Shown piece by piece: positions 221 to 11,695 of a DNA stretch of 12,239 nt. Numbering within the stretch: position 1 is the first letter of the stretch; every line of letters begins with the position of its first letter. The stretch covers positions 1-12,239 of the forward strand of contig JAISOO010000026.1 in NCBI GenBank assembly GCA_031275595.1, in the 5' to 3' direction. The notes beneath the pieces were generated by a model. It was not told the origin of the DNA and made no database searches. It saw nothing but the letters and a program-made list of their open reading frames with translations. The DNA is from Spirochaetaceae bacterium (GTDB lineage: Bacteria; Spirochaetota; Spirochaetia; Treponematales; Breznakiellaceae). A program made the position numbers and the translations under genes.

Positions 221-1642
221 CTATTCAAGAATGGTAATTTCCACCCGGCGGTTCTGGGCCCGGCCGGCCTCGTTTCCGTTGTCCCCCAGGGGTTTTGTGC
301 CGCCCCAGCCTTTGTAGATAAAACGCTCCGGGGGAATACCCCGGCGGACAAGCTCATCCACCATACGCCCGGCCCGTTTCAGGGAAAGTTCCATTTCCCC
401 CGAAGGGTTGCCCACCGCGGCGGTATGGCCCTCCACCAGAAAGGTCCGGCCGGAAATCTGCCCCAGGGCCCGGGCGATAAGGTCCAGCCGGGAGCGCTCC
501 CCGGGAAGAAATTCATCCGAATCAGGATAAAAACGGGCGTCCCTGAGGGTGAGGCGCAGGCCCTCATCCACCTCGGCAACATCGATACCCGCCGCGTCCA
601 TGGCCGGATCCGTTCCCCGGCCGCCGGAGGGACCCGGCGCCGGAGGGGATTTCAGGGCCTTCCCGATGGAAAGGGCCAGGGCGCCCCGATCCAGGGGGAT
701 GATCCCTTCGCCGAAGGTCAGGGTAAAGCCCCGGAACTGCACCGTGGTTCCGTCGGCCCAGGTATAGGTCTCGTCCAGGGTGTCCCGCATTAAAAGGAGC
801 ATACCGTCGGAGACCCGGATCAAAATATCCACCTCGTGGGTGCCCTGGAGCTGATTAAAACCCGGCCCCGGCTGTTGGTGCCGGGAGGCGTATCGGGCGA
901 AGATCCGGTGTACCGGAGTATCCCGGTATGATTCAACCCCCCGGTACTCATATTCCGCGGTCAGGGGAACCACCACGGGATGTCCCTCGTTGAGGGGGTC
1001 CACCGCCCGGCGGCCCGGGGCGGTCCATTTGACGCCCGCATTGACCGGTTCATGGGGAAAAACCGGGAAACCCCTGAGGGAGGGGAAGCCCCGGTCGTCC
1101 TCAACGCTGATCTCGCCCTGGCCGGTGATCTCAAAACTGACGGGAACCACCGCGTCCACCGCCCGGGCGCTCTGCCGCATGTCCCGAAGGGTTTCCTCAA
1201 GGACAAAAAAATTCCCCCGGTACCACCGGGCGCCGGGGAGTCCGGCGCCCTGATTCGGACCCGGAAGAATGGACGCCCGGACTTCCCGGTACACATGGCC
1301 CACATACCGCCCGTTGTCATATCGGGACCAGTCGGACCTTTCTACGATTTTGTAGGGCCCCCGGTCCTCCATGGAGCGTAGTACCGTCCCGGACTCCGAT
1401 GAGCGGGCTTGGGATCCCTTCGCGATTTGCTGGGCCAGTTCCACCGCCCCGAGGGGAAAAAGGCAGCCGGTAAAAAGGATGAGTATCCAGAAGCTTTCCC
1501 AAAACTTCAGTTTTGGGAAAGCAGCCCGGGCCCCGGCGGGAAAGGGCGGCCTTTTTTCCGCTTTCTCTAAAGCCCCTTCCGAAACCGGCCGGATTTTGGG
1601 AGAGGCCCCCCGGAACAACCCTTTCAAGCTGTATTCTTTCAT
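221..1642 (-). CDS. OmpA-domain envelope protein with a repeat element inside its signal-peptide region
   Basis: The C-terminal ~110 residues form an OmpA-like peptidoglycan-binding domain: a RFYPDSDEFLPGERSRLDLIARAL strand-helix part, then VEGHTAAVG, LSLKRAGRMVDELVRRGI and a GRAQNRRVEI ending typical of the family. The preceding ~280 residues are unassigned and rich in beta-type sequence. I chose the ATG at 1642 over the GTG at 1654 because GAGGA sits 5 nt before it, giving 473 residues. The start reads MKEYSLKGLFR, then 40 residues (about 12-51) coded by a palindromic repeat (1490-1608), then a hydrophobic run WILILFTGCLFPLGA. The run could be a signal peptide cleaved after PLGA or, less likely, an LFTGC lipobox. 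Joining the flanks without the repeat would give a conventional short signal peptide. Likely periplasmic or outer-membrane, anchoring the envelope to peptidoglycan. Domain call firm; role inferred. Confidence 0.85.
   Translation of the reverse strand: MKEYSLKGLFRGASPKIRPVSEGALEKAEKRPPFPAGARAAFPKLKFWESFWILILFTGCLFPLGAVELAQQIAKGSQARSSESGTVLRSMEDRGPYKIVERSDWSRYDNGRYVGHVYREVRASILPGPNQGAGLPGARWYRGNFFVLEETLRDMRQSARAVDAVVPVSFEITGQGEISVEDDRGFPSLRGFPVFPHEPVNAGVKWTAPGRRAVDPLNEGHPVVVPLTAEYEYRGVESYRDTPVHRIFARYASRHQQPGPGFNQLQGTHEVDILIRVSDGMLLLMRDTLDETYTWADGTTVQFRGFTLTFGEGIIPLDRGALALSIGKALKSPPAPGPSGGRGTDPAMDAAGIDVAEVDEGLRLTLRDARFYPDSDEFLPGERSRLDLIARALGQISGRTFLVEGHTAAVGNPSGEMELSLKRAGRMVDELVRRGIPPERFIYKGWGGTKPLGDNGNEAGRAQNRRVEITILE
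1490..1608. repeat. Composite palindromic repeat, copy 1 (inside the OmpA-domain gene)
   Basis: The left hairpin is perfect: GCTTTCCCAAAAC (1494-1506), loop TTCA, then GTTTTGGGAAAGC to 1523. The right end (1572-1606) is a decayed hairpin, CTTCCGAAACC against GGATTTTGGGAGAG. The outer ends are imperfect inverted copies of each other (GAAGCTTTCCCAAAAC and, on the other strand, GGCCTCTCCCAAAATC). Between them is a GC-rich middle with a CTTTCTCTAAAGCC stretch. Length is close to 120 bp, a multiple of three, which keeps the host reading frame open. It belongs with the copies at 2381-2521 and 11556-11675. Confidence 0.7.
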
Positions 1643-1844
1643 ATCATTCCTCACCGGGTCCGTTTCGTCATTGAAGTTTTAAACCGCACCCCTGTTTTTA
1701 GCAGATCTCCGCGAAAGCCGGCCGGGCCGCCGGGCGAATCAATAGTATGACCCCGCCGGACCCGCCGGATTCTGAAACCGCCTTCTCTTTATATTCGGCT
1801 TTTTTTGTCTTGTCCGGTGGTATTTTCTTTTGATATAATAAATT
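1643..1844. other. Divergent intergenic region between the OmpA-domain gene and the coiled-coil gene
   Basis: This ~200 bp stretch separates divergently transcribed genes and must hold both promoters. The plus-strand promoter is clear (1810-1839, listed separately). For the minus strand I see only weak -10-like strings such as TATAAA near 1791-1796 without a convincing -35 box. A direct repeat CCGCCGG occurs twice around 1753-1769. No small gene with a ribosome binding site is apparent. Confidence 0.5.
1810..1839 (+). promoter_or_regulatory. Sigma70-type promoter placed for a leaderless transcript
   Basis: TTGTCC (1810-1815) and a perfect TATAAT (1834-1839) are 18 nt apart. The ATG of the next gene begins at 1845, 6 nt after the -10 box, so the normal initiation point falls on or beside the start codon. 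There is no purine-rich ribosome binding site before the ATG. Confidence 0.65.
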
Positions 1845-2312
1845 ATGGATCAAACAAAACCACCGGCGGATGATCTTGCGGGCATGGATGCCGCCGGAGC
1901 CAAGGAATATATTTACCATCATATAACCGCTTTGAAGCTGGCCGGGAGGAAGCTTGAGGAGGTAAGGGGGGAGCGCGCAAAATGGAAGGGCCGGGTGGAT
2001 CTGGCCCGTTCCAGGGGGGAGGAATCTCTGGCCCTGGAAGCGGAAAAGGAGGTCCGGAATTTTGAGGCGAAGCAGGAGGCCCTGGCCGGGGAAATTCAGG
2101 AACTAACCGGGGAGATAGCACGGTTGCGCCGGCAGCTTCCCGGCCTCGCCGCCCGGGAACGGAGCATTGATCCGGACCTTCTGGAGCAGGAGTTGTTAAT
2201 GGTCCTGGGGGAAACGGACGAAGGGGCCCGTAAAACCGCCGGGGAATTCGAGAAGCTCAACGCCGATATGGCCCTGGAAGCCCTCAAGGCAAAGATGCGG
2301 CAAGACCCGTAA
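1845..2312 (+). CDS. Small coiled-coil protein of unknown function
   Basis: A 155-residue, highly charged and almost wholly helical protein. From about residue 18 to 110 it has long heptad-like runs of Leu, Ala, Glu, Lys and Arg (KLAGRKLEEVRGERAKWKGR, EAEKEVRNFEAKQEALAGEI), ending in a proline-containing break and a shorter helical C-terminus. No signal peptide or membrane segment, so cytoplasmic. The acidic and basic pattern recalls small phage-shock (PspA) or scaffold-type coiled coils, but I do not recognise a family. The 1845 ATG has no Shine-Dalgarno sequence; a TATAAT box 6 nt upstream suggests leaderless translation. A later ATG at 1884 also lacks a ribosome binding site. It precedes murJ on the same strand, separated by 229 bp that contain a repeat element, so co-transcription is uncertain. 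Confidence 0.75.
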   Translation: MDQTKPPADDLAGMDAAGAKEYIYHHITALKLAGRKLEEVRGERAKWKGRVDLARSRGEESLALEAEKEVRNFEAKQEALAGEIQELTGEIARLRRQLPGLAARERSIDPDLLEQELLMVLGETDEGARKTAGEFEKLNADMALEALKAKMRQDP

Positions 2313-2314
2313 AG

Positions 2315-2329
2315 GCCCCCTTTAGGGGC
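2315..2329 (+). terminator. Weak hairpin just after the coiled-coil gene
   Basis: GCCCC (2315-2319) and GGGGC (2325-2329) form a 5-bp GC stem three nt after the stop codon. No U-tract follows directly (only GATTTT about 10 nt later), so termination here would be weak. Confidence 0.25.
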
Positions 2330-2380
2330 GCCGGCCGCTGATTTTCACCCGCCGGTCCTCATTGGGGAAGAAGCTATTTC

Positions 2381-2521
2381 GAGGCTGTTCCAAAACTTCA
2401 GTTTTGGAACAGCTTCTTACCCCTGGAGAAAATTGCATAAGCCGTAAGCGCTTACTTTATAAGAAATAAGCAATTTTCTCCCCAAGCCAGTTCCAAAACC
2501 AACCGGGTTTTGGAACTGGCT
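2381..2521. repeat. Composite palindromic repeat, copy 2 (upstream of murJ)
   Basis: Three nested structures are visible. Hairpin 1 is GCTGTTCCAAAAC (2384-2396), loop TTCA, then its perfect complement (2401-2413). The middle stem is GGAGAAAATTGC (2425-2436) with its perfect complement at 2470-2481, enclosing the palindrome GTAAGCGCTTAC (2444-2455). Hairpin 2 is GCCAGTTCCAAAACC (2486-2500) with its perfect complement at 2506-2520. The outer ends are inverted copies (GAGGCTGTTCCAAAAC and GAGCCAGTTCCAAAAC). An extra 8-bp pairing, AAGAAGCT (2368-2375) with AGCTTCTT (2411-2418), could compete with hairpin 1. The element ends 20 bp before the murJ ATG. Confidence 0.8.
2433..2463 (+). promoter_or_regulatory. 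Possible promoter inside the repeat upstream of murJ
   Basis: TTGCAT (2433-2438) is followed by TTTATA (2456-2461, spacing 17) or TATAAG (2458-2463, spacing 19). Both boxes are imperfect and overlap the middle stem. It is the best promoter-like string I find between 2313 and 2541, so the repeat may supply murJ transcription. Confidence 0.3.
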
Positions 2522-2541
2522 CTATCGTTAAGGTTATTGCT

Positions 2542-4125
2542 ATGAGCAGCTCCGTCCGGTCCCTGGTGCGTCATGGTTCTGCCCTGTCCCTGCTCACCCT
2601 GGTTTCCCGGGTTTTGGGCCTGGTCCGGGAGATGACCAAGGCGGCGCTTTTAGGAACCAGCGTCCTTTCGGACGCCTTTTCCGTGGCCTTTTTGATCCCC
2701 AACCTTTTCCGCCGGCTCTTTGCGGAAGGCTCCATCTCGGCGGCCTTTATACCAACCTTTAAGGAATACCTTCTGGAAAACGACCGGGACAAGATCCGGG
2801 AATTTCTTTCCTCAATTTGTACTTTTTTGACCTTTTTCGTAACCCTGGCGGTGATGGCCGGAATCCTTCTCACCCCCCTTTTGGTCCCCGTCTTCGGCAT
2901 AAAAGCATTGGACGAAACCATCCTGTTAACCCGGTTGATGTTTCCCTTCCTGGGTTTCATCTCGCTGGCCGCTTTTTTTCAGGGCATTCTGAACAGCGTC
3001 CGGATATTCGCCCCCTCGGGGCTTGCCCCGATCCTGCTCAACCTGGTTACCATTTTATGCGCCTACGGCCTCAGCCCCTTTACCGCGAACCCCGCCCGGG
3101 CCATGGCCGCGGGGATCCTCCTGGGAGGCTTTCTGGAAGCGGCTATCCAGTTTCCCTTTGTGATGAAAAAGGGGATCCGGTTTTCTTTTACGGGCCTGAA
3201 ACGGGCGATGCGAAACCCCGGAACCCGGGCGGTCCTCAGGCTCATCGGACCCACCATCATCGGCATGGCGGCCTACCAGCTCAACGACCTGGTCTCCACG
3301 GCCCTGGCGGGTAACGCCGGGGAAGGGGTGGTCTCCAGCCTGCAATATTCCCTCCGGCTCCAGGAGCTTATGCTGGGGATATTTGCGGTTTCCATCGGGA
3401 CGGTGCTTCTGCCGGACCTGGCGGAGGACGCGAAAAGCTCCCGCTGGGAGCGTTATAACCAGCGGCTTCTTTCGGCCATGGATATCATCGCCCTGATCAC
3501 CATTCCGGTCACTTTTTTTTCCCTTGCCCAGGGGGAGGCCCTGATCCGCCTCCTCTTCCAGACCCGCAGCTTTGACGAGGAATCGGTCCGGTTGACCCTG
3601 GAGGCCTTTACCTTCCATATGCCGGGGCTCTTTTTTATCGCCCTGAACCGCATCCTGGCCCCGGCCTTTTACGCCCAGAGCAATTCCAAATCCCCCACCC
3701 TGGCGGGGCTGCTGTCCTTTGGGGTAAATATGAGCCTGGCGGCGATTCTGGCGGGTCCCCTGCGGGGGGCGGGAATCGCCCTGGCCCTGTCCCTGGCGGG
3801 GGCGGTCAATACCGCCCTGCTCCTCTTTTTTCTCCGCCGGAATCCCCATATCGCCCTGGGCAGGGCCCTGGGTCCGGCCCTGGGCTATGTCCTCAAACTG
3901 GTCCTCTTTTCCGGCATTGCCGTGGTTCCGGTCCTGTGGGTAAGCCCCCGCCTGGCGGCCCGGTTTTCAGGCTCAGGGAGGCTCGCCGCCCAGGGCATCC
4001 CCCTGGTTATCTCCCTGCTCATCTTTGCGGCGGTGGGGATATTCCTCCTCCTTATTACCGGGGACAAACAGGTCCGGGCCATACTCGGGATGTTCAGAAA
4101 GGGGGAACCGGCTTCCAAGGCATAA
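2542..4125 (+). CDS. murJ: Lipid II flippase MurJ (MviN)
   Basis: An integral membrane protein of the MOP exporter superfamily that moves undecaprenyl-linked peptidoglycan precursor (lipid II) across the inner membrane. At 527 residues it is full length for the family. The N-terminus carries the MurJ signature: SRVLGLVRE (about 22-30), DAFSVAFLIPN (about 44-54) and LFRRLFAEGSISAAFIPTF (about 55-73), with the arginines that line the substrate cavity. The remainder is a long series of hydrophobic helices separated by short basic loops (for example QGILNSVRIFAPSGLAPILLNL and ALNRILAPAFYAQSNSKSPT), which fits the usual 14 membrane segments. The ATG is preceded by a weak AAGG at 8 nt. A composite repeat lies 20 bp upstream, and a decayed repeat begins about 45 bp after the stop, so the gene stands alone. 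Family assignment is firm. Confidence 0.97.
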   Translation: MSSSVRSLVRHGSALSLLTLVSRVLGLVREMTKAALLGTSVLSDAFSVAFLIPNLFRRLFAEGSISAAFIPTFKEYLLENDRDKIREFLSSICTFLTFFVTLAVMAGILLTPLLVPVFGIKALDETILLTRLMFPFLGFISLAAFFQGILNSVRIFAPSGLAPILLNLVTILCAYGLSPFTANPARAMAAGILLGGFLEAAIQFPFVMKKGIRFSFTGLKRAMRNPGTRAVLRLIGPTIIGMAAYQLNDLVSTALAGNAGEGVVSSLQYSLRLQELMLGIFAVSIGTVLLPDLAEDAKSSRWERYNQRLLSAMDIIALITIPVTFFSLAQGEALIRLLFQTRSFDEESVRLTLEAFTFHMPGLFFIALNRILAPAFYAQSNSKSPTLAGLLSFGVNMSLAAILAGPLRGAGIALALSLAGAVNTALLLFFLRRNPHIALGRALGPALGYVLKLVLFSGIAVVPVLWVSPRLAARFSGSGRLAAQGIPLVISLLIFAAVGIFLLLITGDKQVRAILGMFRKGEPASKA

Positions 4126-4171
4126 CCCGGGACCATAGCCTTGAACAGGGCGCCTGGATATTCCGGATAAT

Positions 4172-4276
4172 ATGCGTTTGTCCTGGATCTTTGATGATTT
4201 CTCTCGACAGAAATATTATTTAGTGGTAGGATAAGGGAGCGTTTGTCCCTAAGGCAACCGGCTTTGTGGACAGGCC
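4172..4276. repeat. Decayed composite repeat, copy 3 (fused to the broken PLP-enzyme gene)
   Basis: The segment 4241-4275 (GTTTGTCC...ACCGGCTTTGTGGACAGGC) aligns without gaps to the right hairpin of the copy at 11503-11537, matching at about 28 of 35 positions, including the ACCG loop and CTTTGTGGACAG. A second GCGTTTGTCC at 4174-4183, 65 bp upstream of the one at 4239, corresponds to the left-hairpin arm of that copy. The left hairpin no longer pairs well. The right end runs directly into coding sequence of the PLP enzyme. A 20-codon open frame from 4173 lies in this element; I see no ribosome binding site for it. Confidence 0.55.
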
Positions 4277-5080
4277 CGGTTTAACCTATCCGTTACCTAT
4301 GTGGAGGGGACGGACAGCGCCGCCGTGATCCGGGCCATCAAGCCCGAAACCCGGGTGATCTACCTGGAAAGCCCCAGCTCCCTCACCTTTAAACTCCAGG
4401 ACCTTCCGGTTATTGCCGCTGCGGCCGCGGAGCGGAACATCAAGACCATTGCGGATAATACCTGGGCAACCCCGATCTTCTGCAATCCCCTCACCATGGG
4501 AATAGACCTGGTGGTACATTCGGGAAGCAAGTACCTAAGCGGCGCCAGCGATATTGTGGCTGGGGTTATCGCCGGGTCCCGGGAAGATATCGAACGGATC
4601 CGCCGGCAGGAATTCTGCCAACTGGGAACGGTCCCCGACCCCTTTATGGTGTGGCTCATCCTCCGGGGGATGCGGACCCTCCATATCAGGATGAAAACCC
4701 ATTATGAGTCCGCCCTGCGGGTGGCGTCCTATCTGGAGAAAAGCCCCAGGGTAGAAAGGGTTTTTTATCCCATGGCGGACTCATATCCCCAGCGGGAGCT
4801 GGCCCGCAAACTGTTCCGCGGCGGCTCGGGTCTGTTCAGCTTTACCGCCCGGACCCGTAACCTGGGGGACATAAAAAAATTCACCGACGAACTCCGGCTC
4901 TTTAAACGGGCGGTAAGCTGGGGCGGTTATGAAAGCCTGGCCTTCCCCGCGGCCATATCCAGCCCCCGGGAAGAAGATATCCCCCCGGACAGGCTCAGCC
5001 TGATCCGGCTCCATATAGGCCTTGAAAACCCGGAGCTTCTGATAGAAGATCTGGACCGGGCTTTAAAACACATCGGTTAA
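4272..5080 (+). pseudogene. 5'-truncated Cys/Met-metabolism PLP-dependent enzyme (cystathionine lyase/synthase type)
   Basis: Homology starts at ARFNLSVTYVEGTD (from about 4274) and runs to the stop at 5080. This is about the last 260-270 residues of an enzyme that is normally 380-400 long, so roughly the first third is missing. The retained part has the PLP machinery of the family: DNTWATP, whose Asp pairs with the pyridine nitrogen, and SGSKYLSGASD with the Schiff-base lysine (77th codon from the GTG at 4301). The C-terminal domain is intact (GGSGLFSF, SWGGYESLAFPA, LIRLHIGLENPELLIEDLDRAL). Reading upstream in frame meets TAA at 4250-4252 inside a repeat. The only start is GTG at 4301, with no convincing ribosome binding site. 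The missing N-terminal part normally supplies phosphate-binding and inter-subunit active-site residues, so activity is unlikely. MetB, MetC and MetY-type enzymes cannot be told apart from this fragment. Confidence 0.75.
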
Positions 5081-5094
5081 AAGCAGGGGCAGTT

Positions 5095-5120
5095 GGATGA
5101 CTGCGGCATGGCGGTCATCC
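5095..5120 (+). terminator. Stem-loop after the PLP-enzyme remnant
   Basis: GGATGACTGC (5095-5104) pairs with GCGGTCATCC (5111-5120) over 10 bp with one G-U, beginning 14 nt after the stop codon. The position fits a terminator, but no U-run follows. Confidence 0.35.
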
Positions 5121-5237
5121 TGCTCACGCCATGGGAATCTTTGCCGTTAGCCGGAAATTACCGCCGGTCTTCTGAAGGGTCCCGGGAGGAACCGCTGTCC
5201 GCAGCCTGTTTAACGCGGCATTCGCGTACCGTTTCAG

Positions 5238-5258
5238 CCTCCGGGTCTCTCCCGGAGG
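5238..5258. terminator. GC-rich hairpin between convergent genes
   Basis: CCTCCGGG (5238-5245), loop TCTCT, then CCCGGAGG (5251-5258) is a perfect 8-bp stem about 20 bp past the enolase stop. It could act for either strand. The flanks have only short T-runs (GTTT on the plus strand), so this is a tentative bidirectional terminator. Confidence 0.4.
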
Positions 5259-5277
5259 GTTTGCCGGACAGGGAGCC

Positions 5278-6576
<1,299 letters not shown>

Positions 6577-6763
6577 CTATGGCTCCTTTAAAGATTCGTT
6601 CTAACATATAAGAGGACGCTTCTGTCTCCTTACGGTTTAGAAAATCTCAATATATATAATCTTCCGCTTTTAGGGCCTCCTCGTCAAGGGCCCTCCTCCG
6701 GCGGTAATGTACCGTTACCATGATTTTTCCGGCCAGGCGGGCGCGTTCCGAACAAGTGCGCCG
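6577..6763 (-). other. Intergenic region between the TonB receptor and enolase
   Basis: Read on the minus strand, it has a 6-bp GC stem, AGGGCC (6673-6678) with GGCCCT (6690-6695), downstream of the receptor gene, and a smaller stem, GGTAA with TTACC near 6702-6718. Neither has a proper U-tract. A TATATATAT run at about 6650-6658 (minus strand) could be a -10 region for enolase, but no -35 box lies at a suitable distance. The AAAGGAG site of enolase is at about 6583-6589. Confidence 0.4.
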
Positions 6764-8776
6764 TTAAATTCCGGAGAAATTCACCCGGACCCCCAGGGTT
6801 ACGGTGAGGCCGGGCATATAGTAATCGTCAAAGGACTCGTAGCTTTGGTTGAGAATATTCCGGAGGACCGTGAAAACCGAGAAATTTTTACTTATCCCCT
6901 GGTTGAGGTTGGCGTTTACCAAAAAATAGGGCGGCAATGTGGTGAGATTTACCGTATCCCCATAGCGCGGGCCTTCGTAATGGCCCGAGAGGCTTAAGGA
7001 CCCCCCATAACCCCGGAAGCCCCTTGCCCAGGGTATGGTTACGGAAAATCCCAGCGTATGCTGGGGCATATAGGGAATCCGTTTGTCCGAGGCGAAGGAA
7101 TAGCCGTAACTCAAAAGATAACTCAGCAGGTACTGGTAGGAAAGGGAAAGGCTGATTTTTTCAAAGGGAGGACGGGCAAGGGGAACGGTAAAACCCAGCT
7201 TTGAATCCAGGCCGAAAAAAACCGCCTCCCCCACATTGGAAGGCTTCCAGGTGCCGCCGGAGGGATACCAATGGATGGAATCGGCGGTCCACTGGGTAAA
7301 GAGAAATCCCTCCAGGCTTATCCGGTCATTGACCTCGTAAGCGGCGCCCAGGTCCGCCCCCCAGCCGTCTTCACTTTTCAGGTCCGGGTTGCCGTACATC
7401 CCGCCCCCGTTCCAATAGAGGTCCTCAAAATCGGGTATTTTGAAGCCGCGGAAATAGTTGTTTTTGAAGATAAGGGAATCCGTGGGGGTCCAGACAAAAC
7501 CGAGCTTGGGAACGGGCACCGCCGGCTCGGTTCCGCTCCCCGGAAAAACGGCCTTGACCGACGGGATGACCAGGACCCGCCGGACCGGCTGAAATTCCGC
7601 GGTCAGGTAGAGGCCGCCGTCGTGCCGGCCATGGCGGCCCATGTCCGTGGAATTCAAAAAAGCATAGCGGTAATCCCCCCCCAGGGTAAGGGTGAGCCAG
7701 TCCAGGGGATACCAGCTCCAGCGGTTGATGACCGTGACGGCCTGCTGATCGTGCCGGGAGGAGGCGGCATACTCCCGGACCGACCAGGCATAGGACAGGG
7801 AAGCCTCGGCGGCAAGTTCGTCCCGAAAGGCCCGGGGCATATCCACCATAAGGTTCTGCCGGGTGGAAAGGTCCCGTTGTTTTTCCCCGATATCGGAAGT
7901 TCCCGAAAGGGGGATGTTTTTGTCCCCGTAGGAGAGGTCCCCGCCGATGAGGAGTTTTGCCTCATCCGGCAGATCCCGGATATAGGAGAGGGAAGCCCCG
8001 GCGTCCCACACCTCATTGCTTTCCCGGCGGAGGGTCCTGCCGTAGTAGTCCTTGAAAAGGAAATGATTCCCCGCACGGTTGGCGAAAAGCCCCCCGGACC
8101 AGGAGGATCTTTCGGCGCCGTAACCCAGGGACAGGGCGAAGTTTTGGGTGTCCGCCAGGTCCCGCCATTGGGGGCCCTGATCGCCCGACCGGGGCTTGTA
8201 GTATTTTCCCGGCAGGGCGGCGGTATTTGCGAGGCTGCCCCCGATCCGCAGGCCGGGGGCCTCTTTTTTAAGGGTGATGATATTGATAACCCCCCCAAGG
8301 CCGCCGGATACGTTGTATTTGGAATCGGAGCCGCCGTAGATAACCTCGATCCGGTCCACGGAGGAGAGGCCGAGCAGGAAAATGTCAAATTCCCCGGTGA
8401 TTGGGGAATTCACGGGAACCCCGTTGACAAGAAAGGCGATCCGTTCCGAATCAAAGCCCCGCATATTGATGCCCGTCTGGTTTCCGTAGGGGCCGTACCG
8501 GGTAACCCCCAGATCGAGGGTTTCCTGCAAAAGGACCGCCAGATCCGGGGCGTGGGTGTTTTCAATTTCTTCCCGGGTGATTACCCTTACCTGCTGGGTG
8601 GTTTCCGGGCTTGCGGTGATGGTGATCCCTTCCCGGTCTTCCATGATGAGGACCTCATCGCCCAAAAAGCCATCACCCCCTCCTGCCGCTTCCTGGGGAA
8701 AGAGGGGGGTGAGGATCCGGCAAAAGAGCATCAGGCCCGAAAGCAATTTCCCGGCCCGGGGGACGGATAAAACCAT
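6764..8776 (-). CDS. TonB-dependent outer-membrane receptor
   Basis: An outer-membrane gated beta-barrel for uptake of a scarce nutrient such as a metal chelate, haem or cobalamin; the ligand cannot be read from sequence. Signal peptide: VPRAGKLLSGLMLFCRILTPLFPQEA. The plug domain follows, with VRVITREEIENTHAPDLAVLLQ, GINMRGFDSERIAFLVNGVPVN and VDRIEVIYGGSDSKYNVSGGLGGVINIIT, which resembles the BtuB/FepA plug pattern. The rest is an aromatic-rich series of beta strands ending LNQSYESFDDYYMPGLTVTLGVRVNFSGI, the usual receptor C-terminus. I take ATG at 8776 (670 residues): the upstream lipoprotein gene stops at 8779, giving TAACGATG and likely translational coupling. A GTG at 8806 would add 10 residues that overlap the neighbour. 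Neither start has a clear ribosome binding site. No tonB, exbB or exbD gene is in the window. Confidence 0.93.
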   Translation of the reverse strand: MVLSVPRAGKLLSGLMLFCRILTPLFPQEAAGGGDGFLGDEVLIMEDREGITITASPETTQQVRVITREEIENTHAPDLAVLLQETLDLGVTRYGPYGNQTGINMRGFDSERIAFLVNGVPVNSPITGEFDIFLLGLSSVDRIEVIYGGSDSKYNVSGGLGGVINIITLKKEAPGLRIGGSLANTAALPGKYYKPRSGDQGPQWRDLADTQNFALSLGYGAERSSWSGGLFANRAGNHFLFKDYYGRTLRRESNEVWDAGASLSYIRDLPDEAKLLIGGDLSYGDKNIPLSGTSDIGEKQRDLSTRQNLMVDMPRAFRDELAAEASLSYAWSVREYAASSRHDQQAVTVINRWSWYPLDWLTLTLGGDYRYAFLNSTDMGRHGRHDGGLYLTAEFQPVRRVLVIPSVKAVFPGSGTEPAVPVPKLGFVWTPTDSLIFKNNYFRGFKIPDFEDLYWNGGGMYGNPDLKSEDGWGADLGAAYEVNDRISLEGFLFTQWTADSIHWYPSGGTWKPSNVGEAVFFGLDSKLGFTVPLARPPFEKISLSLSYQYLLSYLLSYGYSFASDKRIPYMPQHTLGFSVTIPWARGFRGYGGSLSLSGHYEGPRYGDTVNLTTLPPYFLVNANLNQGISKNFSVFTVLRNILNQSYESFDDYYMPGLTVTLGVRVNFSGI

Positions 8777-8778
8777 CG

Positions 8779-9300
8779 TTAGTCTTTTACGTATGGTCCG
8801 CCCCACACGGTTACGTAATAGCCGTCGCCCTTATCCCGGGTGAATTCTCTTTTTGCCTGGTCCGCGGTGGTGATTTTGGGGGTAATGTCATTATAGGGCG
8901 GGGCCGATTCCCAACGCCCGGCGGTAGCCATATTCATCTGGGCCGCCGTTAATCCCCGGTAATAGACCGCGCCGAAGGTACGGCCCGTGGCAGGCCCCCC
9001 GGTATTGTATCTAAAGATAATGACCCCTGAGGAATTATCAAAATCTTCAATAGAGGTGATGGTCCCGCTGAAATCCATGGCGGGAAAACCCGACTCATAG
9101 CGAATGGTCGTGTTGGTTATTATATACCCATCCCCAGCCTGTGGATCTCTCCAGGTTCCGGTAAGGGAGCCGCCTTCGCTGCCGCCGCTCCAATCGCAGC
9201 TTGAAAACAGGGCCGAGCCCATAACCAGGCATAAGACAAAAAAGGGCAAAATTTTTTTTACCCAAAAACCTTTCCGCCCGGAAGAACGGGATGAAAACAT
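8779..9300 (-). CDS. Small putative lipoprotein, operon partner of the TonB receptor
   Basis: A 173-residue exported protein. Basic residues (GRKGFWVKK) precede a hydrophobic segment (ILPFFVLCLVMGSALFSS) and Cys35 within LFSSC, a lipobox acceptable for spirochaetes, which tolerate Phe at -3. The mature part opens with a Ser/Gly-rich linker (DWSGGSEGGS) and then a compact beta-rich domain beginning SLTGTWRDPQAGDGYIIT and ending TVWGGPYVKD. The GTW...GDGY opening looks like a lipocalin-like or repeat-type lipoprotein domain, but I cannot name a family with confidence. ATG at 9300 has AAAGGAG 6 nt upstream. Its stop is 2 nt before the likely TonB-receptor start, so the two are almost certainly one operon with this gene first. 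That suggests a surface or periplasmic accessory for ligand capture, as inference only. Confidence 0.85.
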   Translation of the reverse strand: MFSSRSSGRKGFWVKKILPFFVLCLVMGSALFSSCDWSGGSEGGSLTGTWRDPQAGDGYIITNTTIRYESGFPAMDFSGTITSIEDFDNSSGVIIFRYNTGGPATGRTFGAVYYRGLTAAQMNMATAGRWESAPPYNDITPKITTADQAKREFTRDKGDGYYVTVWGGPYVKD

Positions 9301-9339
9301 ACGCTGCTCCTTTCCAAAGAAAATAAACTGTTTTTTCTG

Positions 9340-9500
9340 CGGGACCCCAGCAGTTTGTTGCGCTTTAGCGCAAAATCGTATAAAAATTCACGAAAGTGAA
9401 TTTTTATACCCTGCAAACTGCATTCGAACCGCAGGTTCGCGGAGCCCCAACAATCGGGAATTTTGCATGAATATGCAAAAATTCCACAAGCGCAACAGGT
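9340..9500. repeat. Multi-hairpin structured region between the chemoreceptor and lipoprotein genes
   Basis: Six pairings are visible. An outer stem GCAGTTTG (9350-9357) with CAAACTGC (9414-9421) encloses two hairpins: TTGCGCT with AGCGCAA (9358-9373), and a perfect 14-bp stem (9378-9391 with 9396-9409) closed by a GAAA tetraloop. Downstream are CGAACC with GGTTCG (9425-9439) and a 12-bp stem GGAATTTTGCAT (9457-9468) with 9473-9485, which has one bulge. A long-range pairing GTTGCGCTT (9357-9365) with AAGCGCAAC (9488-9496) could close the whole region. This differs in sequence from the other repeats but has a similar multi-stem plan. It could be an mRNA structure in the lipoprotein leader, a terminator complex or another repeat class. 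Confidence 0.65.
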
Positions 9501-9516
9501 TCCCAGGCCCGCGGAA

Positions 9517-11277
9517 TTATTCGGATGGGTTCTGCCCCGCGGCTATGGTTTTCGCCGCCTCCAGGGACGCCGCTATTCCCTGACAGGCGGTCTGCACGTC
9601 CGTCACGCTTTCATTTACATCCCGGGACAGATGCTTTAAGTTTTCCACGATGTCGTGAATGGAACCGCTCTCCTGTTTTATCATCTGGGAACCGGTCCTG
9701 ACCTGGTTCGCCGTATCCCGCAGGGTGGCGAGGGCCGTTAATATCCGGCCGCCGTTGGACGCCTGGGCTTCCACCGCCTCCATTACCCGGCTAAACGAAC
9801 GCTCCATATCCATTACTTCCCGGAACATCTGCTCCATGGTATCCACGGTCTCCACCGATACCTGCCGGATCCGGTCGATCCCTTCCCGCATTTCCTTTAT
9901 CTCCTGGCTGATCGTCCCCGATTCCTTGTTTGACGATTCCGCCAGGCTCCGCACCTCTCCGGCCACCACCGCAAAACCCTTCCCCGCCTCCCCCGCGTGG
10001 GCCGCCTCAATGGCCGCGTTCATCGCGAGGATGCTGGTCTGGGCCGCTATGTTCACCAGGGCCGCGTTCGCCTCTTCCAGAAACGCCGATTGTTCCGCTA
10101 TCCGCCCCAAATCTTCGCTGAGGGTTCTCAGCATCTTCTGCCCCGCGGCCGATGCCTGGCTCAGTCTGGTGGTGGTCTCGTGGGCCCGTTCCACCACCTC
10201 CCGTATCGCTTCAATATCCTGTACCATTTTTTCTATAGAATCTGAGGATTCATCGATGTTTTGCCCCTGGGTCTCCACCGCCGCGTCCAGGGAACGGATA
10301 TGGCTGATGATCCCCTCCACCGATTCCGCGGTTTGGTCCACCGATTTTATCTGCCCATCCGCCTTGCTCTGCACCGATTCCATGTTGCGGGTTATCACTT
10401 CCAGGCCGTCCGAGGATCTCCTGATGGAAACATGGAGCTCAGCGCTGATGTTTTTTTGGCTTAAATGTTCGTTGCTGATTTCCGTCAGGGCTTTTTTGAA
10501 CTCATCCCGGATAGTATTGAGGGCCCGCTGCATATTACCGATTTCGTCCTTCCGGTTAACGGGAATTAACACGTCAAAATTCATATCCGCCAGGGAGCTT
10601 CCCACATTGACCATTCCCTTGATCGGCCGGAGCAGGGAAAGGGACACGAAGAAAGCCACCAGGCCGGAAGCCAGGATCGCAAAACCCATGGCTGTCCCAA
10701 GGGCGATATAGGCCCTTTGTTCCAGATTGGTGATAAAGGAGACGTCATAGTCCAGGCAGAGGATAGTAGTAACCCTGCCCCCGGCGAAACAGGGGCTAAA
10801 AAGGGAAACAAAGGAGCCCCAGTTGTCGGTATAGGGATCGCTGAATTGACGCTTCCCGGTGGTATAGGCCGCTTCCACCTCACCGGGAATTTCCTCCGCC
10901 GGGTAGAGCTTAAAAACCTCGTCGATACCGGTGTTTTCATCCAGATCATCGGTATCAAAAAGAAACCGGTACTCCGTACCGTCCTTTATCAGGAGATAGA
11001 TGTAGGCGAGGCCGAAGGAATCGGCGAAAATCTTCATATCCCGGGGTATCTGCCAATAGGCCTCGGGATTCGCCTTTGCTTCGGCCATGATATAGTCCGG
11101 ATCGGAGAGTACCGGGTACTGGTGTTCTATCAGGTCCGCCAGACCGGTCAGGGTCCTGACATAGGAATCCTGGATATACCGGCGATATTCGACATATATG
11201 ACAATCCCAACCCCCAGGGCAATGAGAATGCTCAAAGCGACAAAATTAAGAAAAAAATTCGTCCGCAGGCTTTTCAT
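9517..11277 (-). CDS. Methyl-accepting chemotaxis protein
   Basis: A membrane chemoreceptor that signals through CheA/CheW to the flagellar motors. Domains in order, numbered from the ATG at 11277 (586 residues): membrane helix 1 (about 8-28); an extracytoplasmic sensor of about 160 residues, probably Cache-like ([20 protein letters not shown], a core [20 protein letters not shown]); membrane helix 2 (about 188-213); a HAMP linker (LRPIKGMV...[13 protein letters not shown]); and a long helical signalling domain with the hairpin tip [41 protein letters not shown]. The tip is slightly unorthodox (usual QTNLLALNAAIEAARAGE, VVADEVRKLAERS). No C-terminal NWETF-type CheR/CheB tether. I prefer this start over the GTG 60 nt upstream because GAGGGG precedes it and the membrane helix follows at once. 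The ligand is unknown, and no che genes are nearby. Confidence 0.95.
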
Positions 11278-11350
11278 GCCCCTACCCCTCTGTTGGATTA
11301 ATCTACCCGGAGTGGGGTTATCATCACCACAACCCACCCCTCAGGTTATC

Positions 11351-11379
11351 ATCGTAATTACTCGGCGTAAAAAAAACAA
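11351..11379 (-). promoter_or_regulatory. Candidate promoter of the chemoreceptor gene
   Basis: On the minus strand TTGTTT (11379-11374) and TACGAT (11356-11351) are 17 nt apart, giving a leader of about 65 nt before the ATG at 11277. A string of eight T residues in the spacer may add curvature. Two copies of GGTTATCATC (plus-strand reading, 11316-11325 and 11344-11353) lie at and just downstream of the -10 box, and could be operator half-sites. Confidence 0.45.
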
Positions 11380-11418
11380 GGGATTCGGGGGTACGCGCCA
11401 GGGCGAGGGCATATAAAT

Positions 11419-11540
11419 AGAGTCTGTCCATAATGTAGACACATTATGGACAGACTACCTTGAAAACCGCATTTTCGCAGCCATTAGGCGAGAAAATGCA
11501 AGGTCTGTCCGCAAAGTAACCGACTTTGTGGACAGACACT
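11419..11540. repeat. Composite palindromic repeat, copy 4 (GTCTGTCC-armed)
   Basis: Hairpin 1 is a perfect 16-bp stem, AGTCTGTCCATAATGT (11421-11436) with 11441-11456, loop AGAC. The middle unit is closed by ACCTTG (11457-11462) with CAAGGT (11499-11504) and holds GCATTTTC (11469-11476) with GAAAATGC (11492-11499). Hairpin 2 is GTCTGTCCGCAAAGT (11503-11517) with 11523-11537, one G-U, loop AACCG. The outer ends are inverted copies (AGAGTCTGTCC and AGTGTCTGTCC). Total about 122 bp. It lies between the chemoreceptor promoter and the next repeat, 15 bp away. Confidence 0.8.
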
Positions 11541-11555
11541 AAATAAAGGAAGAAT

Positions 11556-11675
11556 GAGGCTTTCCCAAAACTTCAGTTTTTGGGAAAGCAACCTTAGGTT
11601 TATTGGAAAAAGCGGGCTTTAGACCGCATTTTCGGAAGCCCTTCCCAAAACTCTCCCGAGTTTTGGGAAAGCCTC
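11556..11675. repeat. Composite palindromic repeat, copy 5 (TTTCCCAAAAC-armed)
   Basis: The ends are a perfect 16-bp terminal inverted repeat: GAGGCTTTCCCAAAAC at 11556-11571 and its complement at 11660-11675. Each end is also an arm of a hairpin: hairpin 1 spans 11559-11589 (one bulged T) and hairpin 2 spans 11641-11671 (stem TTCCCAAAACTC, loop TCCC). The middle has GGGCTT (11614-11619) with AAGCCC (11636-11641), and shares the 12-mer ACCGCATTTTCG (11623-11634) with the middle of copy 4, although the arms differ. Length exactly 120 bp. Confidence 0.85.
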
Positions 11676-11695
11676 GAATTTAACCGCAATCTCCC

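Follow-up and report, generated by a model that had tools for sequence, protein, structure and literature searches.

The 12,239-bp stretch analysed here (the window; contig JAISOO010000026.1 of the Spirochaetaceae bacterium assembly GCA_031275595.1) encodes MurJ, enolase, a TonB receptor, a chemotaxis receptor and an OmpA-domain protein, and it also carries short palindromic elements of two classes (Table 1). We find that class 1 is a real family of hairpin-ended miniature inverted-repeat transposable elements (MITEs) and that class 2 is a second family of the same design. The MurJ of the window shares 78% amino-acid identity with that of genome G001 and 77% with that of G004 (a single fragment from G037 reaches 81%), which places the window near G001's genus; labels in G and L denote the genomes and loci used for comparison. 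G001 includes locus L027, from record JAITIC of Treponema sp. isolate Pcl387_bin1, part of a series of metagenome-assembled genomes (MAGs) that we take to come from termite guts.

Table 1. Palindromic elements of the window and their target duplications (ORF, open reading frame)
Feature	Position	Strand	Details
Class-1 doublet, 120 bp	11556..11675	.	Hairpins 11559-11589 and 11642-11669 on either side of a core; perfect 17-bp terminal inverted repeat
Target duplication GAAT of 11556-11675, left copy, 4 bp	11552..11555	.	Sequence
Target duplication GAAT of 11556-11675, right copy, 4 bp	11676..11679	.	Sequence
Class-1 doublet, 142 bp	2381..2522	.	Hairpins 2381-2416, 2425-2481 (core) and 2485-2521; flanks TTTC/TATC, 3/4 alike
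Decayed class-1 doublet, 119 bp	1490..1608	.	In long OmpA-domain ORF; intact hairpin 1493-1522; no visible duplication
Class-2 element, 120 bp	11420..11539	.	Hairpin ends of GTCTGTCC type; hairpin 11421-11456
Class-2 target duplication TAAATA, left copy, 6 bp	11414..11419	.	
Class-2 target duplication TAAATA, right copy, 6 bp	11540..11545	.	
Decayed fragment resembling right half of class 2	4230..4273	+	75% alike to 11492-11535

With up to three mismatches allowed, CCAAAACTNCAGTTTTGG has six matches in the window, at three places and on both strands, against a mean of 0.04 and a largest value of 2 in 200 shuffles. Folded as single-stranded DNA, the three intact copies (2381-2522, 11420-11539 and 11556-11675) reach z scores of -6.4, -13.2 and -12.4 relative to shuffles; the 1490-1608 copy reaches -2.2, with 5 of 200 shuffles folding equally well or better. 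The initial annotation had listed five copies built as hairpin, middle stem and hairpin. This plan holds for the three intact copies, whereas 1490-1608 belongs to class 1 as a decayed doublet with one good hairpin and 4230-4273 is a decayed fragment only. The terminal inverted repeat described at 11556-11675 is indeed perfect, although it is 17 rather than 16 bp long.

Hairpin-ended design and target duplications

Read inward, class-1 ends have the sequence GAG(G/C)CTKTYYCAAAAC, and each runs on into its own complement to form a hairpin, with a third hairpin in the core. Our curated set comprises GAG-starting end pairs with up to two mismatches to GAGSCTKTYYCAAAAC (A, G or T allowed at K) lying 33-190 bp apart, with nested pairs and duplicates removed, from sequence retrieved mostly for having matches. 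It contains 90 elements: 37 doublets of 118-173 bp, 38 singles of 36-40 bp and 15 mid-size elements of 50-76 bp. Thirty-one of the singles are isolated; the other seven, each with a further arm no more than 180 bp away, belong to larger structures. Of the 15 mid-size elements, at least eight represent last hairpins of doublets (L044, L072 and six truncated by contig starts). In a doublet, a tight-loop first hairpin is followed by a core hairpin, of which there are about three types, and then by a last hairpin whose variable loop often contains further small palindromes. In 29 of the 37, one end has G as its fourth base and the other has C.

The edges of these elements carry target duplications. 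Exact 4-bp repeats flank 23 of the 37 doublets (2000 permutations: mean 1.44, maximum 7), 13 of the 31 isolated singles (permuted mean 1.03, maximum 5; 14 of 38 before removal of the non-isolated ones, permuted mean 0.94, maximum 5) and 2 of the 15 mid-size elements (permuted mean 0.19, maximum 2). When one mismatch is permitted these counts become 30 of 37 doublets, 20 of 38 singles and 3 of 15 mid-size elements, and duplications of 3 or 5 bp show no enrichment, staying within the permuted range. An uncurated first test had found exact 4-bp repeats at 36 of the 71 pairs spanning 100-260 bp and at 18 of the 151 spanning 30-45 bp. The target is A+T-rich, approximately AWWT: among 39 exact duplications, 24 have A as the first base and 24 have T as the last.

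The two arm types recognized in the initial annotation are real, but they mark two families with different duplication lengths. Class 2 consists of the window copy at 11420-11539 (copy 4) together with L017, L062, L114, L118, L153, L166 and L288; its ends read G(T/A)GTCTGTCC and its members are 119-130 bp long, with additional 39-bp solos. A 6-bp TAnnTA duplication is exact in five of the eight copies (TAAATA in the window), alike at five of six bases in L166 and L288, and decayed in L114, whereas duplications of 5 or 7 bp fit none of the eight. Copy 4 is a member of a second MITE family with the same hairpin-ended design and a 6-bp TAnnTA duplication. A 12-mer that it shares with copy 5 (11556-11675) had been taken as a common core around which arms were swapped. 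Relatives of neither copy keep this 12-mer, however: class-1 elements related to copy 5 have ACCGCTTTTTCC (for example L013) and class-2 elements related to copy 4 have AACGCATTTTCG (L017), and the proposed swap is not supported.

Modularity holds in part within class 1, where neither arm subtype is tied to a single core. By rough regular-expression classes, the TGTTCC subtype is joined to core type A in 14 elements, B in 7 and C in 6, and the TTTCCC subtype to type A in 15 and C in 8 (52 classified, two of these with an unassigned core; seven further elements could not be oriented). Pairing is maintained across the subtypes, as the initial annotation had proposed from arms that differ. Within the first hairpin (225 unique 36-mers, anchored by their 5' half alone; 300 shuffles), both sides have changed in 11 of 17 pairs, giving 285 such cells where shuffles average 144 and reach at most 183, and 3227 of 3825 cells are paired against a mean of 3036 and maximum of 3075, both excesses being inflated by related copies. 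The palindromes hardly extend outward: past base 9 from the core, complementarity is near background, apart from a few longer cases. Doublets at L036 (4358-4514, 157 bp) and L044 (2999-3138, 140 bp) differ by 17 bp in the last-hairpin loop, which in L036 holds an extra CCGGCTATGCCGG palindrome, and several kinds of palindromic loop occur, as though hairpin tips were exchangeable. A third family with the same hairpin tip is represented by a single example.

Distribution and insertion history

In genome contigs the CNNTYCCAAAACTNNAGTTTTGGRANNG pattern marks at least 120 stretches; among the matches listed, 119 are labelled as Treponema/Spirochaetaceae MAGs and one as an Oscillospiraceae MAG (L058). 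Within G001's genus, 5 of 39 genomes have the perfect hairpin TYCCAAAACTNNAGTTTTGGRA (87, 33, 3, 1 and 1 copies), and in the order it is present in 41 of 291 genomes (up to 87 per genome). It also occurs in all 39 genomes picked for having matches (1-30 each), and a reversed-pattern control gave zero in every genome of all three counts. Rfam holds no match for the repeats, and none was found in IMG/VR (by pattern), PLSDB or INPHARED. The class-1 elements of L058 (JAISBW010000046.1) lie in a 4.3-kb contig, which represents either a transfer or a mis-binned contig.

Several loci record sites with and without an element. A 155-aa ORF was recognized upstream of murJ in 5 of 30 MurJ loci (L171, L172, L174, L177 and L197), and in all five the two genes adjoin with no space for an element, whereas the gap in the window measures 229 bp and includes 2381-2522. 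The solo at L017, with GATT on both sides, is missing from G004, where both flanks align with 85% identity over the joined flanks; it is also missing in an alignment to G043 of poorer quality. The doublet at L169 (TGAG on both sides) is absent from that place in G004, whose own doublet lies 35 bp further, the homology here covering the left flank only. For elements of G003, whose genus has one other genome, no further empty sites were found, and the comparison yielded a different kind of pair instead. L091 is a 140-bp doublet with TACA on both sides, and L414, in the same genome and with flanks about 95% identical, retains the last hairpin only, the deletion having run between two copies of the arm CTTTCCCAAAA. 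Some solos are therefore remnants. LTR (long terminal repeat) elements likewise leave solo LTRs by deletion between repeats, and the end-like unit at L414 resembles these except that the repeats are hairpin arms inside a MITE.

All 14 G002 contigs chosen for a match near the start begin 115-119 bp inside an element and then continue into unlike DNA. These contigs are named k119, and such starts would be expected if near-identical copies defeated the assembly. In G002 the elements also sit at contig ends over about one assembly word length, a point relevant to users of such MAGs. Copy numbers, together with these contig starts in near-identical copies, point to recent bursts in a small number of species, and the class-1 family looks recently active.

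Mode of movement and competing explanations

The initial annotation had inferred a non-autonomous mobile element resembling either MITEs or paired repetitive extragenic palindromes (REPs). The MITE side of this proposal is right because of the exact target duplications, sharp edges and lineage-specific presence: classes 1 and 2 are MITEs inserted by a staggered cut, not REPs moved by a REP-associated tyrosine transposase (RAYT). Class 1 in particular is very probably a gene-free MITE with hairpin ends and 4-bp-duplicating insertion, moved in trans by a putative DDE-type transposase. Such a staggered-cut enzyme, encoded elsewhere in the cell, would recognize class-1 ends and insert the element. 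The hairpins may assist this recognition, either as folded single strands or in cruciform shape, or they may persist since both arms are putative binding sites. After insertion, a doublet could shrink to a solo hairpin by deletion between its repeated arms, as it did once, at L414.

Several observations weigh against this account of class 1. First, an exact duplication is missing at 14 of the 37 doublets and at 18 of the 31 isolated singles, and also at window copies 2381-2522 and 1490-1608. Second, L017 is the sole clean two-sided empty site; L169 and L157 are one-sided, and L102 and L081 are messy. Third, not all solo hairpins fit simple decay. Finally, no autonomous partner was found in 50 DDE_Tnp_1 loci and other sequence, from MAGs that are fragmented.

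The solo hairpins can also be read as mobile units themselves, with the 36-bp perfect palindromic hairpin as the smallest mobile form, inserted with a 4-bp staggered cut and building larger hairpin-core-hairpin MITEs as composites. Such a unit would probably be inserted as a folded hairpin or cruciform. This is consistent with the exact duplications that isolated singles have of their own, with the place at L017 that is empty in G004, and with the symmetry of many solos: the 11-base ends are identical in 19 of the 28 isolated solos that are 36-38 bp long, compared with 2 of the 37 doublets (Fisher p = 7.8e-8), and among duplicated copies in 8 of 12 such solos against 1 of 23 doublets (p = 1.6e-4), both values being indicative as the copies are related. 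However, at least one solo arose by deletion from a doublet at the same site, the ends of several G002 solos are mixed, as simple deletion predicts, and 36 bp would be a very short length on which to build a synaptic complex. On balance we regard solos as the founding units, and doublets as their composites, as an unlikely account. The symmetrical solos either became symmetrical afterwards or, with similarly low probability, were inserted as they stand. With such units and their own duplications, the minimal size of the transposable unit can be tested by strain comparison.

Movement as single-stranded DNA by a RAYT (a Y1 HUH transposase), as in REPs, their hairpin-forming doublets (REPINs) and bacterial interspersed mosaic elements (BIMEs), would explain the same outer look of short palindromes, single or as inverted pairs, at high copy number. 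One bona fide RAYT was seen in G001, at L129 (G001:C206; NF047646, 99 bits), but no hairpin was detected in this 2.5-kb locus; a RAYT gene flanked by the same hairpins, suggested in the initial annotation, was not found among the few Y1 loci examined. RAYT-type matches occur in 16 of 39 genomes of the genus, namely in 3 of 5 with the hairpin and in 13 of 34 without it. G004 has 33 perfect hairpins and no RAYT-type match (MAGs being incomplete), whereas G043 has 36 matches and three hairpins; RAYT presence does not track hairpin presence. According to the portion of PMC2817692 available to us, IS200/IS605-type transposases make no larger target duplications, yet 4-bp duplications are present here at doublets and singles alike. 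The REP/RAYT side is unsupported and a RAYT-driven origin very improbable. Short palindromic repeats are readily filed under REP/RAYT, and the same look here hides staggered-cut insertion with measurable duplications.

Selected RNA hairpins (terminators, stabilizers or attenuators) scattered by ordinary mutation would fit the kept pairing and the position between genes of two of the three class-1 window copies and the intact class-2 copy, but as a sole explanation they are refuted by the target duplications, run counter also to the empty site, the patchy presence and the near-identical copies in unlike surroundings, and are a very improbable origin; the elements may have taken on a regulatory role later.

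Staggered-cut MITEs remain the preferred explanation, and comparison with known systems shows where they depart from type. Bacterial MITEs, in the sections of PMC10969869 that were available, are about 100-150 bp long, gene-free and numerous, with terminal inverted repeats and target duplication; class-1 doublets likewise are short, encode no transposase, and have both inverted repeats and target duplication. Here, however, a hairpin forms each terminal inverted repeat and another forms the core, single hairpins (36-40 bp) that carry a duplication of their own are frequent, and no parental insertion sequence was found in the loci scanned. REPINs and BIMEs with their RAYTs, as excerpts of PMC3116915, PMC2817692 and PMC6006769 present them, share the inverted palindromes around a spacer, the singles and doublets and the kept pairing, but differ from our elements in the 4-bp duplications, in the RAYT flanked by hairpins (none found here) and in the foot, GAGG/GAGC here against a GTAG tag; feet other than GTAG (CnGA) are mentioned for some classes in the available part of PMC6006769. 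Rickettsia palindromic elements, as far as the same part of PMC10969869 covers them, are palindromic repeats of about 120-150 bp and resemble 1490-1608, which lies within an ORF and whose 119 + 4 bp make a multiple of three. Unlike them, this copy spans residues 16-55 of the OmpA-domain ORF, in a poorly conserved N-terminal region, and any protein use is only putative. Because five of the six closest relatives of the OmpA-domain ORF align only from residue 80 or later (L202 aligns from residue 19), the region may belong to a signal peptide or lie upstream of the gene, and not be an in-frame insert that the protein tolerates. A literature search at listing level returned no description of these elements in spirochaete MAGs.

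Candidate partners and neighbouring repeats

Among candidate partners, a RAYT-derived family has FYIK or a similar sequence as its HUH motif and is missing the RAYT C-terminal part (L124 in G003; L126 and L132 in G006; L135, L140 and L144 in G007; L137 in G001; L232, L253, L255 and L257 in G043). Judged by its motif, this family appears catalytically dead, yet it is expanded in some genomes, with 47 PF01797 matches in G007, 18 in G006 and 36 in G043, many of them partial. It was rejected as a partner: by eye, its upstream regions share a motif near TAAAGC..CATATATA, not the element ends. An IS4-type element of G006 was set aside as a parent too, for although GAGCCTGTTCCAAAACCC lies 77 bp past its stop codon, its copies share the edge CACTGTCAACAASTTAAG, and the GAGCC motif lies beyond this edge, at a distance of about 40 bp in two copies and of several hundred bp in a third. 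At L338-L357, where this IS4-type element has CACTGTCAACAASTTAAG ends, the GAGCCTGTT motif outside three G006 copies suggests that it inserted into other repeats.

No ORF-bearing pair of class-1 ends with a 4-bp duplication was found in 50 DDE_Tnp_1 loci (two sets, of 30 and 20), a search that did not extend to the IS1182, IS701, IS1380, ISH3 and rve families, several of which make 4-bp duplications. When the scan was loosened to accept inverted ends of any sequence beside a 4-bp duplication, it returned pairs in L285, L297, L380, L394 and L397, all with other end sequences, and five weak pairs of ends (L030, L046, L061 twice and L236) were unconvincing. Hairpin arrays of CTCGCAATGACG / CGAAGCAATC at L126 (15-254) and L116 (3951-4120) form a different repeat family.

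Two further features of the window deserve mention. An ORF for a Cys/Met pyridoxal-phosphate enzyme at 4230-5080 is without its first third (profile positions 124-381 of 381 matched) and sits just downstream of the decayed class-2 fragment at 4230-4273; its 5' part may have been removed by insertion or deletion. A further set of nested palindromes lies at 9340-9500, between a 173-aa ORF and the chemotaxis gene (for example GTATAAAAATTCAC/GTGAATTTTTATAC at 9378-9409), and its sequence is unrelated to classes 1 and 2.

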